From the NCBI RefSeq assembly GCF_014904705.1, contig NZ_JACZCQ010000001.1, forward strand, positions 124,001 to 188,000: 64,000 nucleotides of DNA. Reading direction: 5' to 3'. The notes beneath the pieces were generated by a model. The model saw nothing but the letters and a program-made list of their open reading frames with translations, ran no database searches and was not told the DNA's origin. Shown piece after piece: positions 6,169-32,132 of the stretch (positions are counted from its first letter, which is position 1; each line of letters opens with the position of its first letter). The translations under genes and the position numbers were made by a program. Source of the stretch: Nisaea sediminum. GTDB taxonomy: Bacteria; Pseudomonadota; Alphaproteobacteria; Thalassobaculales; Thalassobaculaceae.

Positions 6169-6792
6169 TCAGGTCAGCGGAATATCGAGCACATGCTGCC
6201 TGAAGGCGGGCCGCGCGGCGATACGGGCGTACCAAGCTTCGAGCGCCGGCATCGGCGGGCGGTCTTCGACCAGGGTCAGCCAGCGGTAAATGTTCATGCC
6301 GAGCGGAATGTCCGCCATGGTCAGCCGGTCGCCCATCATGTAGTCGCGGCCGGTCAGGCGCTTTTCCAGGATCCAGAGTACGTCGATCATGCCCTTGCGC
6401 GCGGTGTCGATCGCGGCATGGTCGCGCTCGGCCTCCGGAGTCCTGACGAGGCCCCAGAAGATCGGCGTGATGAGGGGCAGGAGCGTGGTGTGTTTCCAGT
6501 CCATCCAGCGGTCCGCATCGGCATAGTCGCGCGGATCTGCGGGCGCCATCTCGCCTTTCGAATGCTTGTTGCAGAGATAGCGGACGATGGCGTTCGACTC
6601 CCAGAGAACGAAATCATCCTCGATGATCGTCGGGACGCGGGAGTTCGGGTTGAGCGACAGGTAATAATCGTCCTTCGTGTTGGCGAAGGCGCCGCCGTAA
6701 TCCTCGCGCTCGTTCGGGATCCCGAGCTCGCCGCAGAGCCAGGTCACCTTCTGCACATTGCTCGAATTGTTGCGTCCCAGAATCTTCAGCAT
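6169..6792 (-). CDS. Glutathione S-transferase family protein
   Basis: A 207-residue two-domain GST. The thioredoxin-like N-terminal half begins MLKILGRNNSSNVQKV, with the serine-rich glutathione-activating region near residues 10-12, and has the cis-proline segment NSRVPTIIED plus the ESNAIVRYL helix that binds the gamma-glutamyl group. The helical C-terminal domain contains the fold motif GDRLTMADI. It follows pyrE by 37 bases on the same strand with a good ribosome site, so it may be the distal part of the riboswitch-led transcript. The class resembles theta/beta-like bacterial GSTs; the substrate is not predictable. Confidence 0.88.
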   Translation of the reverse strand: MLKILGRNNSSNVQKVTWLCGELGIPNEREDYGGAFANTKDDYYLSLNPNSRVPTIIEDDFVLWESNAIVRYLCNKHSKGEMAPADPRDYADADRWMDWKHTTLLPLITPIFWGLVRTPEAERDHAAIDTARKGMIDVLWILEKRLTGRDYMMGDRLTMADIPLGMNIYRWLTLVEDRPPMPALEAWYARIAARPAFRQHVLDIPLT

Positions 6793-6829
6793 CTCGGCCC
6801 TCCCGGCGCCTCGCTCGTCCTTGTCTTTC

Positions 6830-7516
6830 TCAGGTTTCGACAGTCTCGCGGGATGCGGCCCAGCCGTCCGGGTCGCGCAGGAACTGGCGCACTTCGGCGA
6901 GCTGGGCGGCCGTATAGCCGCGCTTCTCGGCCGCGGCGAGCACGTCCCACCAGGTGCAGAGCCCGTGCAGATCGACGCCCCTTTCTTTCATCGAGGTCGT
7001 GCTCTCCGGGAAGTTGCCGTAGTGGAACACGACGAAGCAGTGCGCGACCTCTCCGCCGGCTTCCCGGATCGCGTCGATGAAGGAAAGCTTGGAGCCGCCG
7101 TCGGTCGCGAGATCCTCTACCAGCAGGATGCGCGCACCCTCGGGGAAGGTGCCTTCGATCCGCGCGTTGCGGCCGAAGCCTTTCGGCTTCTTTCGGATGT
7201 AGAGCATCGGCAGGCCGAGCAGATCGGCGATCCAGGCGGCAAACGGAATGCCTGCCGTCTCGCCGCCGGCCACCGCGTCGAACTGTTCGAACCCGGCCTT
7301 CTGGGCCAGCAGTTCGACGCCCATCTCCATCAGCTTCTTCCGCGCGCGGGGGAAGGAGATGATCTTCCGGCAATCGACATAGACCGGGCTGAGACGGCCC
7401 GAGGTGAAGGTGAAGGGCTCTTCCGGGCGGATATGCACGGCCTCGATCTCGAGCAGGATATTGGCTGCGGTCTCGGCGATGCTCTGGCGGAAATCGGGGG
7501 TCTGGCTCTCGTCCAT
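6830..7516 (-). CDS. pyrE: Orotate phosphoribosyltransferase
   Basis: A 228-residue type I phosphoribosyltransferase. The orotate-binding TSGRLSP motif is at about residues 39-45, and the PRPP loop RILLVEDLATDGGSK matches the PyrE pattern of two acidic residues followed by a T/G-rich loop. It converts orotate and PRPP to OMP in de novo pyrimidine synthesis. The ATG at 7516 (MDESQ) begins at the usual PyrE N-terminus; the open frame continues upstream without conserved sequence. It sits 55 bases after livF in a run led by a TPP riboswitch, an unusual setting for a pyrimidine enzyme. Confidence 0.9.
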   Translation of the reverse strand: MDESQTPDFRQSIAETAANILLEIEAVHIRPEEPFTFTSGRLSPVYVDCRKIISFPRARKKLMEMGVELLAQKAGFEQFDAVAGGETAGIPFAAWIADLLGLPMLYIRKKPKGFGRNARIEGTFPEGARILLVEDLATDGGSKLSFIDAIREAGGEVAHCFVVFHYGNFPESTTSMKERGVDLHGLCTWWDVLAAAEKRGYTAAQLAEVRQFLRDPDGWAASRETVET

Positions 7517-7571
7517 CGACGGGGGGCTCCCAAGGCAGGCGATTTGAAACGCCCGGAGCATAGACGAAGCC

Positions 7572-8291
7572 TCAGCCGTGTTCACCCTCGGAAAGCAGCA
7601 GATGTTTCAAGCGATCGTGAGAGACGTCGCCCACCGGTGCGTCGAGCACCAGCCGGCCTCTGTGCAGCACGGCAACGCGGTCGGCGACGGACAGTGCATG
7701 GGTGAGGCTCTGTTCCGCCAGCAAGACGCCGTTCCCCCTATCTGCCAAGCGCCGAATCGTGGGGAACAATTCCTGGCAGATCACAGGCGCAAGACCCAGG
7801 GAAGGCTCGTCGAGCAGCAGGACATCCGGGTCGGACATCAGCGCGCGGGCGATGGCGACCACCTGCTGCTGGCCGCCGCTGAGGCGCCAGCATTCCTGCT
7901 CCAGGATGTGATCGAGCAATGGGAAGAGGCGCGTGATCTCTTCAATCCGTCTGTCACGCTCTCTGGCGGTGGCTCTGGAGGCGGCGTGCAGGGTGTCCAA
8001 GACACTCATGCCCGGGAAGAGGCGCCGGCCCTCGGGGCAATAGCCGATGCCGAGCCGGGCCCGTCCGGCCGTCTCGAGCGGGCCGAGATCGCGGTCCCGG
8101 AACCGGATCGAGCCAGCCTCAAGCGGCTCGAGGCCCATGATGGAGCGTAGCAGGCTCGACTTTCCGGCGCCGTTCAGCCCGAGCAGGGCGACGATCTCTC
8201 CGGCGGAGACAGAAAGATCGAGGTTGTCGACGGCGAGACCGCCTCCGCGCAGGATGGAGACGTTGCGAAGCTCAAGCAGCGCGACGCTCAT
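7572..8291 (-). CDS. livF: LIV-type ABC transporter ATPase (LivF-like)
   Basis: A 239-residue ATPase: Walker A GLNGAGKSS near residues 38-46, the LivF-type segment GIGYCPEGRRLFPGMSV, signature LSGGQQQ, Walker B VLLLDEPSLGL and an H-loop glutamine-histidine variant AEQSLTHAL. The AEQ in place of the usual histidine switch is common in LivF. Its ATG overlaps the LivM-LivG fusion stop in ATGA. It is the second ATPase of the transporter encoded by the riboswitch-led operon. The LIV label describes family, not substrate. Confidence 0.9.
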   Translation of the reverse strand: MSVALLELRNVSILRGGGLAVDNLDLSVSAGEIVALLGLNGAGKSSLLRSIMGLEPLEAGSIRFRDRDLGPLETAGRARLGIGYCPEGRRLFPGMSVLDTLHAASRATARERDRRIEEITRLFPLLDHILEQECWRLSGGQQQVVAIARALMSDPDVLLLDEPSLGLAPVICQELFPTIRRLADRGNGVLLAEQSLTHALSVADRVAVLHRGRLVLDAPVGDVSHDRLKHLLLSEGEHG

Positions 8292-9943
8292 AACGGGCTC
8301 TCCCCGAAATACGCCCGGACGGCATGCGGATTTTGCACGACCTCCTGCGGCGTTCCTTCGGCGACGATCCGGCCGGCGCTGAGGCACACCACTCTGTCCG
8401 CGAGCGGGAGCAGGAAATCCATGGCGTGATCGACAAGCAGGATCGCATGTCCCTCAGCAGCGAGAGCCTTGAGAAGCCATGCAAGGTCTGCACGCTCGAC
8501 GTCGTTCATGCCCGCCGCCGGCTCGTCGAGTGCGAGCAGCGAGGCGCCGGTGGCGAGCGCCCGCCCGATCTCGAGACGCTTCTGCCCTGCGGGCGGCAGG
8601 CGTTCGGCAAGATCGTCCGCGCGCTCGCCGAGGCCGACCCTTGCGAGCAGCGCTTCCGTATCGCAGGGGGCGACTGCTTCGAGGCTCTCCCGCAGCGTGA
8701 GAGCCGGGGCGATCTGCGGGTGCTGGAACGTCCTGGCGATCCCCGCGCGGGCGATCCGGTCCGGGGAGCGGCCTGTCAGATCTTCGTCGCCGAAACGGAC
8801 GCGGCCGGCGCCGGGTTTCTCGATCCCGGCGATCAGGTTGACCAGAGTCGTCTTGCCGGATCCGTTCGGTCCGATCAGCCCGACAATCTCGCCGGGAGCG
8901 ACGGAAATCGATACGTCGTCGAGCGCCGCCACGCCGCCGAAATGCTTCGTGACATGTTCCATGGAAAGCGCCGCGTGGCGGAGCGGTCGCGGAGCCGGGA
9001 CCTTCGATTTGGTCCGGCGCGTCCGCCCCTCCGGCAGCAACCCGGCGAGACCGTGCGGCAGGAAGAGGATGGCTCCGAGCAGGGCCGCGCCGTAGGCGAC
9101 GAGATAGTAATCCGCAAAGTCTCGGAACCATTCCGGGAGATGCACCAGCAGCAAGGCGCCGAGTATGGCGCCCAGTGGGGATTCCCGGCCGCCGATCACC
9201 GTCATCGCCAGCAGCAGGACCAGGATGTGGAAGGAGAGCACGTCGGGCGAGACGACGCCGACCGCATGGGCCTGCAAGGCACCGGCGAAACCTCCGAAAG
9301 CGGCGCTCGCCAGGAAAAAACGGAAGCGTATCGCGGCTCCGTCGATACCGAGGGCGGCCGCCGCGCTCGGTGCGGCGCGAAGGGTCTCGACCGCGAGGCC
9401 GCGCCTCCCCGCGGTGAGACGATGAGAGACCCAGAGCGAGACGGCAACGCAGGTCCAGACGAGGGCTGTCAGCGGCAGGCCGAAACCGATCTTTATGCTG
9501 GCGAGCGAGGCCGGAGGTACGCCGAAGAGGCCGTTGGCGCCGCCGGTCACTTCGGTCCAGTTGGTCGCCGCGAGCAGAGCGAGCTGCGCGATGCCGAGAG
9601 TCGCGAGGGCGAAATAGTGTGAGGCGAGGCGCAGCACCGGGATCGCGATCAGCGCGGCGAGCAGGACCGGCAGGGCGGTTCCGGCAATCAGGGTGAGCGG
9701 GAAGCCGAGACCGAGTTCGAGCGCGGTCAGGGCGGCCGCATAGGCACCAAGCCCGAAGAAGCAGCCCTGTGCGAGCGAGAGGGCGCCGAGCCGGCCGAAG
9801 ACGAGCTGGTAGCCGATCGCCGCGATGGCATAGATCCCGGCCCGGGTCAGCACATCATGGCCGTAGCCTCCGGCGAAAGCGACGGCGTGGACCGCGAGCG
9901 CGGCGCCGCCGCCGAGGAGCAGCAGCGAGCGGCGCTCAGACAC
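8288..9943 (-). CDS. Fused LIV-type ABC permease-ATPase (LivM-LivG fusion)
   Basis: A 551-residue two-part protein. Residues 1-305 are a LivM-type permease with about eight membrane segments and the GGRESPLGAILGA motif near 251-263. A basic linker at 306-325 leads into a LivG-type ATPase with Walker A GPNGSGKTT at 358-366 and Walker B LLALDEP at 469-475. The ABC signature is unusual, LPPAGQKR at 449-456 instead of a canonical LSxGQ form, but the following LEIGRAL helix is conserved. It overlaps livH by 8 bases and livF by 4. Such LivM-LivG fusions occur in some proteobacteria. It should pair with LivH in the membrane and LivF in the cytoplasm. Confidence 0.88.
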   Translation of the reverse strand: MSERRSLLLLGGGAALAVHAVAFAGGYGHDVLTRAGIYAIAAIGYQLVFGRLGALSLAQGCFFGLGAYAAALTALELGLGFPLTLIAGTALPVLLAALIAIPVLRLASHYFALATLGIAQLALLAATNWTEVTGGANGLFGVPPASLASIKIGFGLPLTALVWTCVAVSLWVSHRLTAGRRGLAVETLRAAPSAAAALGIDGAAIRFRFFLASAAFGGFAGALQAHAVGVVSPDVLSFHILVLLLAMTVIGGRESPLGAILGALLLVHLPEWFRDFADYYLVAYGAALLGAILFLPHGLAGLLPEGRTRRTKSKVPAPRPLRHAALSMEHVTKHFGGVAALDDVSISVAPGEIVGLIGPNGSGKTTLVNLIAGIEKPGAGRVRFGDEDLTGRSPDRIARAGIARTFQHPQIAPALTLRESLEAVAPCDTEALLARVGLGERADDLAERLPPAGQKRLEIGRALATGASLLALDEPAAGMNDVERADLAWLLKALAAEGHAILLVDHAMDFLLPLADRVVCLSAGRIVAEGTPQEVVQNPHAVRAYFGESPL

Positions 9944-10829
9944 GGGCGCGGGCCCGTTCCGGCAGCAGTCCCTGGGGACGGAAGGCGAGCATAGCGAGGA
10001 GAACGCCGTAGAGCAGGGCTTCCGCGACGAGATAGGAGGTGACGGCGGCGACCAGGGTCTCGAAAAGGCCGATCAGCAACGCCCCGAGCACGGCGCCGTC
10101 GAGCCGTCCCCAGCCGCCGATGGTCACCGCGATATAGGCCTTCAGCATGAAAAGGCCGCCGTCGTTCGGGCTGACGAAGAACTGGTTCGAGAGCAGCAGC
10201 CCCGCCGCGCCGGCGAGCGCGACGGCCAGCGCGAAGGAGAGGGTGATCATTCGGGCCGGGCGGATGCCGATGGCGGCGGCCATTTCCGGGTCCTGCGCCA
10301 CCGCCCGCATGCGTCGCCCGGTCTGCGTCCTGCCGAGAAAAAGGCCGGTGGCGGAGACCAGAAGGGCTGCGCTTCCCAGCACCGCGAATTGCTGCAGGGA
10401 GAGGGTGAGACCTCCGACGGTCGGGCTGTCGCCCGCGATCAGCGGCGGGCCGACGCGCGGCGCGGCGCCGAAGACGGCATTGGCGAGATGCTGCAGCACC
10501 AGGCCGATGGCGATGGTGCTGATGAAGACGGCGACCTGCGGCCGGTGACGGAGCGGGAAATAGGCGAGATGCGCGAAGCCGACTCCGAACCCGCCCATCA
10601 GGAGCATGACCAGAGGCAGCAGCAGGAGACCGGGGAAACCTGCTGCCTCGCCGACCAGGGGCGCGAGGGCAATCGCTGTGAAGCCGCCCGCCATCACCAG
10701 CTCGCCCTGGGCAAAGTTCACTGCGCCAACCGCGTTTATGACGATGACGAAGCCAAGCGCGATCAGGGCGTAGGCCGCGCCGAGGGCGAGGCCGTTCAGC
10801 AGGATCTGCGCGAGGGCGAGTGACGTCAT
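9936..10829 (-). CDS. livH: LIV-type ABC transporter permease (LivH-like)
   Basis: A 297-residue inner-membrane protein with the LivH opening (LNGLALGAAYALIALGF) and the motif AVNFAQGELVMAGG at about 36-49, plus the conserved G-R-x-M-R-A-x-A-Q-D segment at about 172-181 that contacts the ATPases. It lies 18 bases after the binding-protein gene and overlaps the LivM-LivG fusion. It is one half of the translocation channel. Regulation by the upstream TPP riboswitch is inferred from the tight operon. Confidence 0.9.
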   Translation of the reverse strand: MTSLALAQILLNGLALGAAYALIALGFVIVINAVGAVNFAQGELVMAGGFTAIALAPLVGEAAGFPGLLLLPLVMLLMGGFGVGFAHLAYFPLRHRPQVAVFISTIAIGLVLQHLANAVFGAAPRVGPPLIAGDSPTVGGLTLSLQQFAVLGSAALLVSATGLFLGRTQTGRRMRAVAQDPEMAAAIGIRPARMITLSFALAVALAGAAGLLLSNQFFVSPNDGGLFMLKAYIAVTIGGWGRLDGAVLGALLIGLFETLVAAVTSYLVAEALLYGVLLAMLAFRPQGLLPERARARV

Positions 10830-10847
10830 CCAGGAAGTCTCGGCTCT

Positions 10848-11963
10848 TTAATTGGTGCGGTCGACATTCTCGTACCGGCTCGCGATCGCCGGAACGCGGC
10901 TCTTGCCATCGTAGCAGACCACCACCGCGTCATGCGCCATGTTGCCCTTGCCGTCGGACTTGTAGGTCATGGCAAGCCCGTCGAAGCTGTTGGCGGCGAG
11001 CCAGTCGCGCACTTCATCCGCGCTTTTCGCCCCTGCAGCCCTTGCGGCGACCAGCATGGCGGCACCGTCATATTGCGCCAGCGCGAACGCGTCGGGCTCG
11101 ATCCCGAAGCGCTTGCGGTATTCGGCGGTGAAGTCGGCGACCGGGCCGACCGGCTCGGAGATCGGCGAGGAGGCGCTTTCGGCGCAGACGTCTTTCAGTT
11201 GCGCGGGCTCCAGCAGCGCGGCCGTGGTCGGCTGGTGCATCGCGGAGCCGGCGACCACGGGGAACATGTTCCCGCTTTCGCGCGCCTGCCGGATGACGAG
11301 AGCGGTGGAACCCGAATGGAGATGCAGCAGAAGAATGTCGGGTTCGGCCGCCTGCATCCGGGTCAGCGCCGGCAGCATGTCCTTCACCGAGATATCGATG
11401 GCTTCCTCGAACACCAGCGGTGCTCCGAGACCAGCGAGGATTTCCTTCAGGTGTGCCGCGCCGCTCTGGCCGTAGGCGGTGGTTTGATAGAGCAGGGCGG
11501 GGCGCCTGGCGCCGAGTTTCTCGACCGCATATCGCGCCTGCGCGACCTTCACCACACTGTCGCCCGGAAAGAAGCGGAAGACGTTCGGGCTGCCGAGCTC
11601 TGTGATCCTGGCGGTACCGGAGACGGTGAGCAGCGGCACGCCGGCCCGGTCGGCCACCGGGATCATCGCCAGCATCTGCGTCCCGAGCATGGAGGAAACC
11701 GCCGCGCTCGGCTCGTCTGCAAGCGCGCGGCGGAGGGCGGTGACCGCGCCTTCGGGCGTGGTTCCGGTATCGGTCACCTCGGTTTCCAGGCCTTCCGCGG
11801 CGCCCAGCGTATCGATGGCCATCACCGCGCCGTTGCGCTGCGAAGTCCCCTCGAGCGAGAGAAACCCTGTGATCGGCACGAGCACAGGCACGGTCTCGGC
11901 GCGGGCCGAGCCTGCGGTTGCGAGGATGGCGGCGAGGGCGATGGCGGTCTTCTTCAGGAACAT
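10848..11963 (-). CDS. Periplasmic binding protein of the LIV/amide type under TPP control
   Basis: A 371-residue type I periplasmic binding protein with a clean signal peptide ending SARA (residue 22). Typical features are PVLVPITGFLSLEGTSQRNGA at the mature N-terminus, TQMLAMIPVADRAGVP around 85-100, and LLYQTTAYGQSGA before the second lobe. I start at the ATG at 11963; the longer frame runs into the riboswitch. It is the first gene downstream of a TPP aptamer, so its ligand is predicted to be thiamin, a thiamin precursor or a breakdown product rather than a branched-chain amino acid. That assignment rests on the riboswitch, not on binding-site residues. Confidence 0.88.
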   Translation of the reverse strand: MFLKKTAIALAAILATAGSARAETVPVLVPITGFLSLEGTSQRNGAVMAIDTLGAAEGLETEVTDTGTTPEGAVTALRRALADEPSAAVSSMLGTQMLAMIPVADRAGVPLLTVSGTARITELGSPNVFRFFPGDSVVKVAQARYAVEKLGARRPALLYQTTAYGQSGAAHLKEILAGLGAPLVFEEAIDISVKDMLPALTRMQAAEPDILLLHLHSGSTALVIRQARESGNMFPVVAGSAMHQPTTAALLEPAQLKDVCAESASSPISEPVGPVADFTAEYRKRFGIEPDAFALAQYDGAAMLVAARAAGAKSADEVRDWLAANSFDGLAMTYKSDGKGNMAHDAVVVCYDGKSRVPAIASRYENVDRTN

Positions 11964-12059
11964 TCCCGGCACTCCAATCGATCCGTTCACGCGAACGGCT
12001 TGCATCACGGCCAGGGAGAGGAAAAGCGACGAGTGGGCCCGGAGATCGGGTCCGGTGAC

Positions 12060-12139
12060 GTCTCCCTGCGCCGGCATGACCCGGATCAGGTTCGATGGGT
12101 ATCCTCTCAGTTCCGGAACGGTCTCCGGAACACCCCAGC
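12060..12139 (-). promoter_or_regulatory. TPP (THI-box) riboswitch
   Basis: Read on the minus strand, the aptamer contains all the conserved parts: GGGGTG at the P1/P2 side, a P3 hairpin with arms TTCCGGA and TCCGGAA, then CTGAGAGGATACCC (12110-12097), AACCTGATCCGGGTCATGCC (12092-12073) and the closing CGCAGGGAG. The P3 stem and the helix binding the pyrophosphate side are base-paired as in the consensus. It lies about 100 bases upstream of the binding-protein ATG at 11963. In that leader an inverted repeat CCGTTC/GAACGG sits just before the ribosome site GGAGTG, so control at translation is possible. The remaining leader and the space up to 12370 are AT-rich and contain no gene. Confidence 0.95.
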
Positions 12140-12370
12140 ATCACTTCCGCCCAACCTGCGGACCGGCCCGGAGTTTGTCAAGGAACACCCTGCAGGATAC
12201 TGGCAGCCCGAAATTTTTTGAGGCTTTATCACGTTGATTTGCAAAGAAAGAGGGTGAATTTTCCGAAAGTTGAAAGAGAAATTTCTTTCGAGTTCGCCAT
12301 AATTTGTTAACCTTAGATGCGCGGAAAAATTGAGGAGATTGTTGGAAGAGCTCACGAAAGGTGAGTGCAT

Positions 12371-31196: not shown

Positions 31197-32132
31197 TCAG
31201 CTTACGCGGATGCGCGGGTTGAGATAGGCGTACCCGATGTCGGAAATGAGCTGCGTCAGCAGCACGACGACGACGGAGACGAGGGAACAGCTTAGCAGCA
31301 GGTCGATGTCGTTATTGTCTGCGGCTTCCACCAAAGTCCACCCGAACCCTTTGTAATTGAAGAGCTTTTCGACGATCACGACGCCCGTCAGAAGCCAGGG
31401 GAACTGCAGCATGATCACCGTGAAGGGCGCGATCAGTGCGTTCCTGAGTGCGTGGCGCAGCACCTGGGCGCGGAAGGAGAGGCCTTTGAGGCGCGCGGTG
31501 CGGATATATTGCGCCGTCATCACCTCGGCCATGGAGGCCCGGGTCATGCGCGCGATGTAGCCCATGCCGTAGATCGCCATTGTCATGACGGGCAGGGCGA
31601 AATTGTTGAAATCGATGCCGCCGGCCTTGGATACGCCCTTCAGGACACCGAGCCAGGAGGCGAAGAGAACGGTGAAGAGAATGCCCGAGACGTATTCCGG
31701 TGTCGCTGTCGAGGCGATGGAGACCACCGAAAGACTCCGGTCCGTCTTCGAACCCTCGCGCATGCCTGCGAGTACGCCGATGATGAGCGCCGTCGGGACC
31801 ATGGTGATCATGACCCAGAACATCAACGTCCCGGTATAGCCGATGCGCGGAGCGAGAACTTCGGCGACCGGCTTGCGGAAGCGTGTCGAGCGTCCGAAAT
31901 CGCCTGTCGCCGCATTGCCGATCCACTCCGCATAGCGTTCCAACAGAGGGCGTCTGTAGCCTTCTTTTTCCAGCCAGCTCTCGACGGCTTCCTCGGTCAT
32001 GCGGTTGTTGTTCTGTTCGAGCGCGAGTTTTTTCAGGTTCGGCTCGAGATTGACCAGATAGAACACCACGAGCGTCAGGCAGATCATCGTCACGATCATG
32101 ACCGCCAGACGTCTCAGTATGAATTGCAGCAT
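31197..32132 (-). CDS. Peptide-type ABC transporter permease (DppB-like)
   Basis: A 311-residue permease with the DppB opening helix (LRRLAVMIVTMICLTLVVFYL) and six hydrophobic segments. The ATPase coupling loop is QYIRTARLKGLSFRAQVLRHALRNALI, around residues 200-226. It follows the binding-protein gene after a 107-base gap that contains a strong terminator-like hairpin, so expression is probably partly attenuated compared with the binding protein. Confidence 0.9.
   Translation of the reverse strand: MLQFILRRLAVMIVTMICLTLVVFYLVNLEPNLKKLALEQNNNRMTEEAVESWLEKEGYRRPLLERYAEWIGNAATGDFGRSTRFRKPVAEVLAPRIGYTGTLMFWVMITMVPTALIIGVLAGMREGSKTDRSLSVVSIASTATPEYVSGILFTVLFASWLGVLKGVSKAGGIDFNNFALPVMTMAIYGMGYIARMTRASMAEVMTAQYIRTARLKGLSFRAQVLRHALRNALIAPFTVIMLQFPWLLTGVVIVEKLFNYKGFGWTLVEAADNNDIDLLLSCSLVSVVVVLLTQLISDIGYAYLNPRIRVS

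Follow-up and report, generated by a model that had tools for sequence, protein, structure and literature searches.

The window analysed here, the whole stretch of 64,000 nucleotides from Nisaea sediminum (contig NZ_JACZCQ010000001.1, positions 124,001 to 188,000 of the forward strand), contains on its minus strand a thiamin pyrophosphate (TPP) riboswitch aptamer, followed by the genes of an ATP-binding cassette (ABC) importer of the LIV/HAAT type (leucine-isoleucine-valine/hydrophobic amino acid transporter). We put at roughly one in two the probability that this is a TPP-repressed importer of one of the building blocks of vitamin B1, the likeliest being the thiazole moiety, either as 4-methyl-5-(2-hydroxyethyl)thiazole (HET) or as its 2-carboxy form (cHET). 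In the order of the minus strand, the features of the locus are:

12045 to 12147, minus strand: TPP riboswitch aptamer (RF00059), from cmscan against Rfam
11964 to 12044, minus strand: leader from the aptamer to the start codon, read from the sequence; the probable expression platform
10848 to 11963, minus strand: substrate-binding protein (SBP) of the LIV/HAAT type, 371 amino acids, with a signal-peptide-like N-terminus (PF13458, 152.8 bits)
9936 to 10829, minus strand: LivH-type permease (PF02653, 112.9 bits)
8288 to 9943, minus strand: LivM-LivG fusion, permease and ATPase (PF02653, PF00005 and PF12399 on a single chain)
7572 to 8291, minus strand: LivF-type ATPase (PF00005, 113.9 bits)
6830 to 7585, minus strand: pyrE, orotate phosphoribosyltransferase, not part of the transporter (NF001729, 349.8 bits, cut-off 245)
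6169 to 6792, minus strand: glutathione S-transferase (GST)-like protein, not part of the transporter (PF13409 and PF00043)

The initial annotation had placed a complete TPP aptamer at 12139-12060 of the minus strand and had proposed an Infernal comparison with RF00059. That span falls within the match obtained in the Rfam search of the window, at 12147-12045 (64.2 bits, E 2.6e-10; the gathering score is 54.3), which covers model positions 1-105 of 105 and thus the whole aptamer. It is the single TPP aptamer in the 64-kb window, and a whole-genome Rfam search recovered it again as G000:C1:136045-136147, G000 being the source genome. The four transporter genes named behind the aptamer were all confirmed on the same strand by their Pfam domains, a Peripla_BP_6 SBP (PF13458) with two PF02653 and two PF00005 domains, which place the system in the LIV/HAAT family. 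The annotated span of 6169-12139 covers the transporter and also takes in pyrE and the GST-like gene, which do not belong to it. The genes are closely packed: 18 bases separate the SBP gene from livH, livH and the livMG fusion overlap by 8 bases, and livMG and livF by 4, with the livF ATG at 8291 lying over the stop of the fusion.

The leader contains UUUUCCUCUC at 12025-12016 and a Shine-Dalgarno-like GGAG at 11975-11972. Since this GGAG is located 8 bases upstream of the ATG at 11963, which opens a signal-peptide-like stretch, translation of the SBP likely starts there; the ATG at 12077 offered by a mechanical open reading frame, which falls within the aptamer, was dropped as a start. No terminator-like site was detected in 11900-12365, and the folding energy of the window leader is ordinary (z-score 0.13). 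When helix P1 of the aptamer was forced in the Nisaea leaders L030-L032, the predicted probability of an unpaired start codon fell from 0.65-0.98 to 0.00-0.16, the occlusion running through the UUCCUCUC segment, which is paired with the aptamer in the free folds. Occlusion is thus predicted in three of the four folded Nisaea leaders, with the window leader as the exception. From folding, the leader likely controls the start of translation, the window sequence itself having no predicted occlusion.

The conservation of this arrangement was followed in two sets of sequences. A genome scan found 144 relatives of the SBP, the best 80 of which were kept as loci (the L set; 790,120 bases). These are not 80 independent genomes: some of their genomes recur in the second set, and a single metagenome-assembled genome (MAG) supplied both L073 and L082. 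The second (G) set comprised 61 whole genomes, 36 in the family of the window and 25 outside it; with a carrier defined by an SBP at E <= 1e-40, the family divides into 23 carriers and 13 non-carriers, and five of its genomes (G000-G004) are Nisaea. Under the handles G061, G062, G079 and G088 the genomes G002, G003, G016 and G031 appear again with the same coordinates, G061 and G062 being the genomes of L031 and L032. We derived a covariance model, R1, from 20 leaders; since 19 of these lie within the searched loci, its matches to them are not independent, unlike those from the Rfam searches. Genes were called by codon usage, which failed in AT-rich loci (no SBP was called in L036, L038, L040, L041 and L105) and cut some genes short at TPP sites, where tblastn was applied.

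At E <= 0.01, R1 placed an aptamer upstream of the SBP gene and on the same strand in 66 of the 77 loci having upstream DNA (L039, L048 and L095, where this DNA is missing or short, were left out). Each such locus gave one match, with none elsewhere in the 790 kb; in L070 the last aptamer positions overlap the matched start of the SBP. When 13 loci with upstream DNA but no regular-expression match were rechecked by Rfam, 2 were positive and 11 negative. Among the 61 whole genomes the SBP occurs in 23, all within the family of the window, and the whole-genome Rfam search found an aptamer beside it in 21 of these, 19 above the cut-off; in the remaining two the SBP gene lies at a contig edge (G009) or is partially matched (G022). 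The pairing therefore recurs upstream of LIV-type operons in relatives, where the initial annotation had proposed to look for it. Carriers include Nisaea, Thalassobaculum, SAR116, Azospirillum and Skermanella.

Gene order is conserved as well. In the 61 aptamer-bearing loci with a called SBP, livH comes next in 60 (the DNA of L092 ends there), livH-livMG follows in 58, and livH-livMG-livF in 46, most of the others reaching the end of their DNA. Mapped on a tree of 48 SBPs, the aptamer-bearing group is explained by 2 changes (mean of shuffled labels 10.8) and the aptamer-less group by 3 (10.0), few enough to be expected of an inherited trait. The source genome has 35 places that resemble the SBP at first look (32 scored), just one of which passes 1e-40, and it has three TPP aptamers above the cut-off in 5.0 Mb. 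Given this rarity of the aptamer and the recurrence in related genomes, the pairing is more than chance. In Azospirillum-type loci a conserved protein follows livF (k5, 25 loci), possibly in the same operon; its representative, L049:9691-10944, has no Pfam match.

The other two TPP aptamers of the source genome lie upstream of thiC and upstream of ThiX-ThiY, a permease with an NMT1/THI5-type SBP. Across the family, ThiX-ThiY or ThiY lies behind a TPP site in 15 carriers and 8 non-carriers, together 23 of the 36 genomes; a weak 24% ThiY match in G010 is left out of this count. TPP sites lead to ThiG operons in five of the six ThiG-bearing genomes by coordinates, the genes being seen in four, and G011 has no TPP match. 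Four carriers (G005, G016, G028 and G031) have an additional TPP aptamer upstream of thiM, and two (G006 and G025) have ThiBPQ at a TPP site. As ThiY stands at TPP sites in carriers and non-carriers alike, the part that alternates is the thiazole branch: where the sites can be read, the pyrimidine branch appears to be served by import or by ThiC, and the thiazole branch either by ThiG or by this transporter in its place. The TPP-linked ThiX-ThiY genes (L005:5629-7338 and relatives) have no adjacent ATPase gene on the same strand in G000 and in most of the family loci of like arrangement that were read.

Gene content points in the same direction within the family. We counted ThiG only at E <= 1e-90 (20 of the 61 genomes) and assumed that weaker partial matches, at E 1e-9 or worse and some above the Pfam cut-off of 23 bits, which occur also in G000-G004, are other barrel enzymes; absence of a gene is weak evidence where a genome is less than 90% complete. 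ThiG is present in 0 of the 23 carriers versus 6 of the 13 non-carriers (G011, G012, G020, G021, G027 and G033), and when completeness of 90% or more and contamination of no more than 5% are required, the figures are 0 of 14 versus 3 of 6 (G011, G012 and G021). The thiC gene was found in four family carriers, G000-G003, with a TPP aptamer just upstream, and the other 19 carriers lack it. ThiE was found at E <= 1e-10 in 34 of the 36 family genomes, with partial matches under the cut-off in G009 and G029; it is missing in G014 and G030, each at most 70% complete. ThiM occurs in the carriers G005, G016, G028 and G031 and in the non-carriers G015 and G023; as most carriers lack it, ThiM was ruled out as a necessary partner of the transporter. 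TPK, the thiamin pyrophosphokinase (PF04263, the one thiamin kinase family covered by the search), was found in none of the 36 family genomes. ThiB (TIGR01254, E <= 1e-20) is absent in 34 of the 36, and in all just 2 of 45 genomes are positive, the carriers G006 and G025. No full-length Thi4 appeared among the matches listed for the 45 genomes; all 45 have PF01946 matches, which we rejected as generic dinucleotide-binding motifs, those listed scoring at most 32.6 bits and mostly covering 40-60 of 235 positions.

Nisaea is the sharpest case. It has thiC (4/5 genomes), ThiE (5/5) and ThiL (5/5, over the cut-off), yet no known thiazole route was found: in G000-G004 we found no full-length ThiG, no ThiM, no full-length Thi4, no ThiB and no TPK. 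Because TPK is absent too, this gene content favours import of thiazole over import of thiamin, and a thiazole substrate would be its simplest reading. With ThiE and ThiL but neither ThiM nor TPK, any kinase for HET or for thiamin in these five genomes would need to belong to a different family.

The transporter proteins were compared with characterized families, and the SBP also with known folds. The curated NCBIfam cut-offs for branched-chain amino acid transport were missed by LivH (107 of 379 bits), LivG (168 of 362), LivF (166.1 of 441) and the SBP (55.6 of 477), and those for urea transport likewise (UrtB 148.3 of 250.3, UrtD 178.2 of 304.1, UrtE 200.5 of 285.8). The SBP is not of the ThiB type, matching PF13458 instead, and G000 has no TIGR01254 match at E <= 1e-20; nor does the SBP match PF09084 (NMT1/THI5), a separate PF09084 protein being encoded elsewhere in the same genome. 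Its AlphaFold2 model (mean pLDDT, the predicted local distance difference score, 92.2) is nearest to LIV-type binding proteins, with Z from 35.2 to 42.6 among the 50 entries listed. These include AmiC, binders of amino acids or of urea, and structures solved with 4-hydroxybenzoate or vanillate; we counted the folds holding these aromatic acids in favour of a thiazole ligand, though amino-acid and urea binders stand alongside. In HMMER alignments the Asp that follows a conserved Gly in 3td9 and 4gnr, which we take to be the residue holding the alpha-amino group of amino acids, aligns to Ser240 of the SBP. This serine is invariant in all 48 rows, aptamer-bearing and aptamer-less alike; in an hhalign comparison with LivJ a gap falls at its position. 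This alignment of the Asp with Ser240 hints at a ligand that may lack an alpha-amino group, such as cHET.

These observations can be set against three other readings. The system could import intact thiamin, or thiamin monophosphate (TMP), in place of ThiBPQ, since TPP control is typical of thiamin importers, ThiB is so rarely found in the family, ThiL could process imported TMP, and most carriers have no ThiM with which to use HET. We consider this unlikely, though well worth weighing: lacking TPK, the family would require an unrecognised kinase, the retention of ThiE, and of thiC in Nisaea, would be pointless without a source of thiazole, and G006 and G025 own ThiBPQ besides the LIV system, which therefore need not be a thiamin importer. 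Importers of the pyrimidine 4-amino-5-hydroxymethyl-2-methylpyrimidine (HMP) are also among the known TPP-controlled importers, and the lack of thiC in most carriers would suit uptake of HMP or of its aminomethyl (AmMP) or formylaminomethyl (FAMP) relatives; however, four Nisaea genomes have both thiC and a TPP-linked ThiX-ThiY, and ThiY sits at TPP sites whether or not the transporter is present, making a pyrimidine substrate very improbable. Family and fold, finally, are those of LIV-type systems, and eleven homologues have no detected aptamer, five of them beside a ferritin-like gene and some beside an alcohol dehydrogenase gene, as might be expected if an ordinary importer of branched-chain amino acids or other carboxylates had come under TPP control. 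Against this stand the aptamer in most loci and its agreement with the SBP tree, the scores short of the curated amino-acid models, and the serine in place of Asp, though that serine is found in the aptamer-less homologues too; we regard this reading as improbable.

Several results weigh against thiazole import by a TPP-repressed system. For the leader of the window itself no switch is predicted: the A of the AUG is unpaired at 0.98 in the free fold and 0.96 in the forced one. Within the family, just two genera with ThiG (g8 and g9) account for the alternation. A further ThiG search took in 40 genomes from the 80 loci, together with G000 and G012; 35 of the 40 have an aptamer-linked SBP, and ThiG is present in 26 of these (Azospirillum, Skermanella and one Roseomonas-named genome); the nine without it include four repeats of family-set genomes. 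ThiG was also found in three of five locus genomes with an aptamer-less homologue. Strict mutual exclusion of transporter and ThiG, complete in the family and broken in Azospirillum, was therefore rejected as a rule. Outside the family 11 of the 25 genomes have neither ThiG nor the SBP, absence of ThiG being common anyway, and G035 (97% complete) has no transporter, no full-length ThiG and no ThiM. As ThiM is missing in 19 of the 23 family carriers, imported HET would need another kinase there. The eleven aptamer-less homologues, moreover, share the conserved residues, so the ligand may not be specific to thiamin.

For thiazole import, then, we would propose the following. At low TPP the leader would permit translation of the SBP, which would capture thiazole in the periplasm; LivH and LivM would carry it across the membrane, with LivG and LivF supplying the energy. 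The thiazole would be phosphorylated by ThiM in Thalassobaculum and by a kinase other than ThiM in Nisaea, and ThiE would couple the phosphate to HMP pyrophosphate, obtained either through ThiC or after import of a pyrimidine by ThiX-ThiY. TPP would then be produced by ThiL, shutting the switch. More tentatively, the system may be a dedicated high-affinity importer of cHET or HET, one that stands in for thiazole synthesis in Nisaea, Thalassobaculum and SAR116-type bacteria and gives Azospirillum a salvage route besides. The initial annotation had pointed to a little-studied route by which thiamin or its precursors might be taken up; on genomic grounds the conserved pairing and the gene content of carriers fit such a route, with thiazole favoured over HMP and intact thiamin.

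The homologues in which no aptamer was detected, nor by Rfam at its cut-off, are those of L085, L091, L094, L097, L098, L099, L101, L102, L103, L108 and L109. In six of these eleven loci livH comes next after the SBP gene; it was not called after it in L094, L101, L108 and L109, where downstream DNA is present. This branch may have split off from the transporter, and the SBP of L101, L108 and L109 may be an orphan binding protein. A ferritin-like protein (k28) is encoded near the SBP in L097, L099, L101, L102 and L103, the member scanned, from L097, having only an AurF match below the cut-off, and an iron-containing alcohol dehydrogenase (k33) in L095 (aptamer unread), L097 and L099. These neighbours suggest a catabolic role for that branch. 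The SBP of L102, titled a Klebsiella pneumoniae MAG, is very close to that of the betaproteobacterial MAG L101 and has the same neighbours; the title is probably wrong.

Downstream of the transporter in the window, pyrE is possibly cotranscribed with it. In L030-L032 and L090 the called gene directly after livF is pyrE, as it is, from cruder calls, in the SAR116-type loci L036, L037, L040 and L041. Neither pyrE nor the GST-like gene gives a hint on the substrate. Elsewhere in the window, Rfam matched Cis52_sRNA at 31442-31614 (86 bits), antisense to a permease-like open reading frame and probably derived from coding sequence.

The system resembles ThiBPQ in being an ABC importer with a periplasmic binding protein under TPP riboswitch control, but the SBP of ThiBPQ belongs to TIGR01254, which is confined here to two carriers, and the probable ligand also differs. 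With ThiXYZ it shares TPP control of a putative precursor importer, and a ThiY-type protein stands at a TPP site in 15 of the 23 carriers; the SBP there is of the NMT1/THI5 type (PF09084), whereas here it is LIV-type. From LIV/HAAT importers such as LivKHMGF, UrtABCDE and those of aromatic acids, with which it has the SBP fold and the permease and ATPase families in common, it differs by its TPP control, its LivM-LivG fusion, its invariant Ser in place of the Asp of 3td9 and 4gnr, and its scores below the curated Liv and Urt cut-offs.

Statements in a 2018 paper (PMC5899164) describe thiazole transport systems as of "unknown sequence identity" and report that algae and E. coli can grow on very small amounts of thiazole precursors, sub-picomolar cHET being sufficient for E. 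coli without thiG and the need for HET about a million-fold higher. The B1 transporter names given in portions of PMC10881298 and PMC12442306 are thiB, thiT, thiY, thiV, cytX, ykoF, ThiPerm, omr1 and pnuC, with no LIV type among those, and a table in PMC3766115, which treats 19 transporter orthologues, represents the Alphaproteobacteria by Caulobacterales, Rhodobacterales and Rhizobiales only. In the open-licence literature we came across no LIV-type transporter described as being controlled by a TPP riboswitch, most subscription papers and the regulon databases lying outside the search. What appears new is thus a TPP-controlled ABC importer from a family without a link to B1 in the searchable open literature. 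If thiazole is indeed its substrate, the system would provide a gene-level candidate for the thiazole transporter, carried by Azospirillum and by marine bacteria of the SAR116 and Nisaea types; genome-based predictions of B1 auxotrophy would change, and a family of amino-acid transporters would have been recruited for vitamin salvage.

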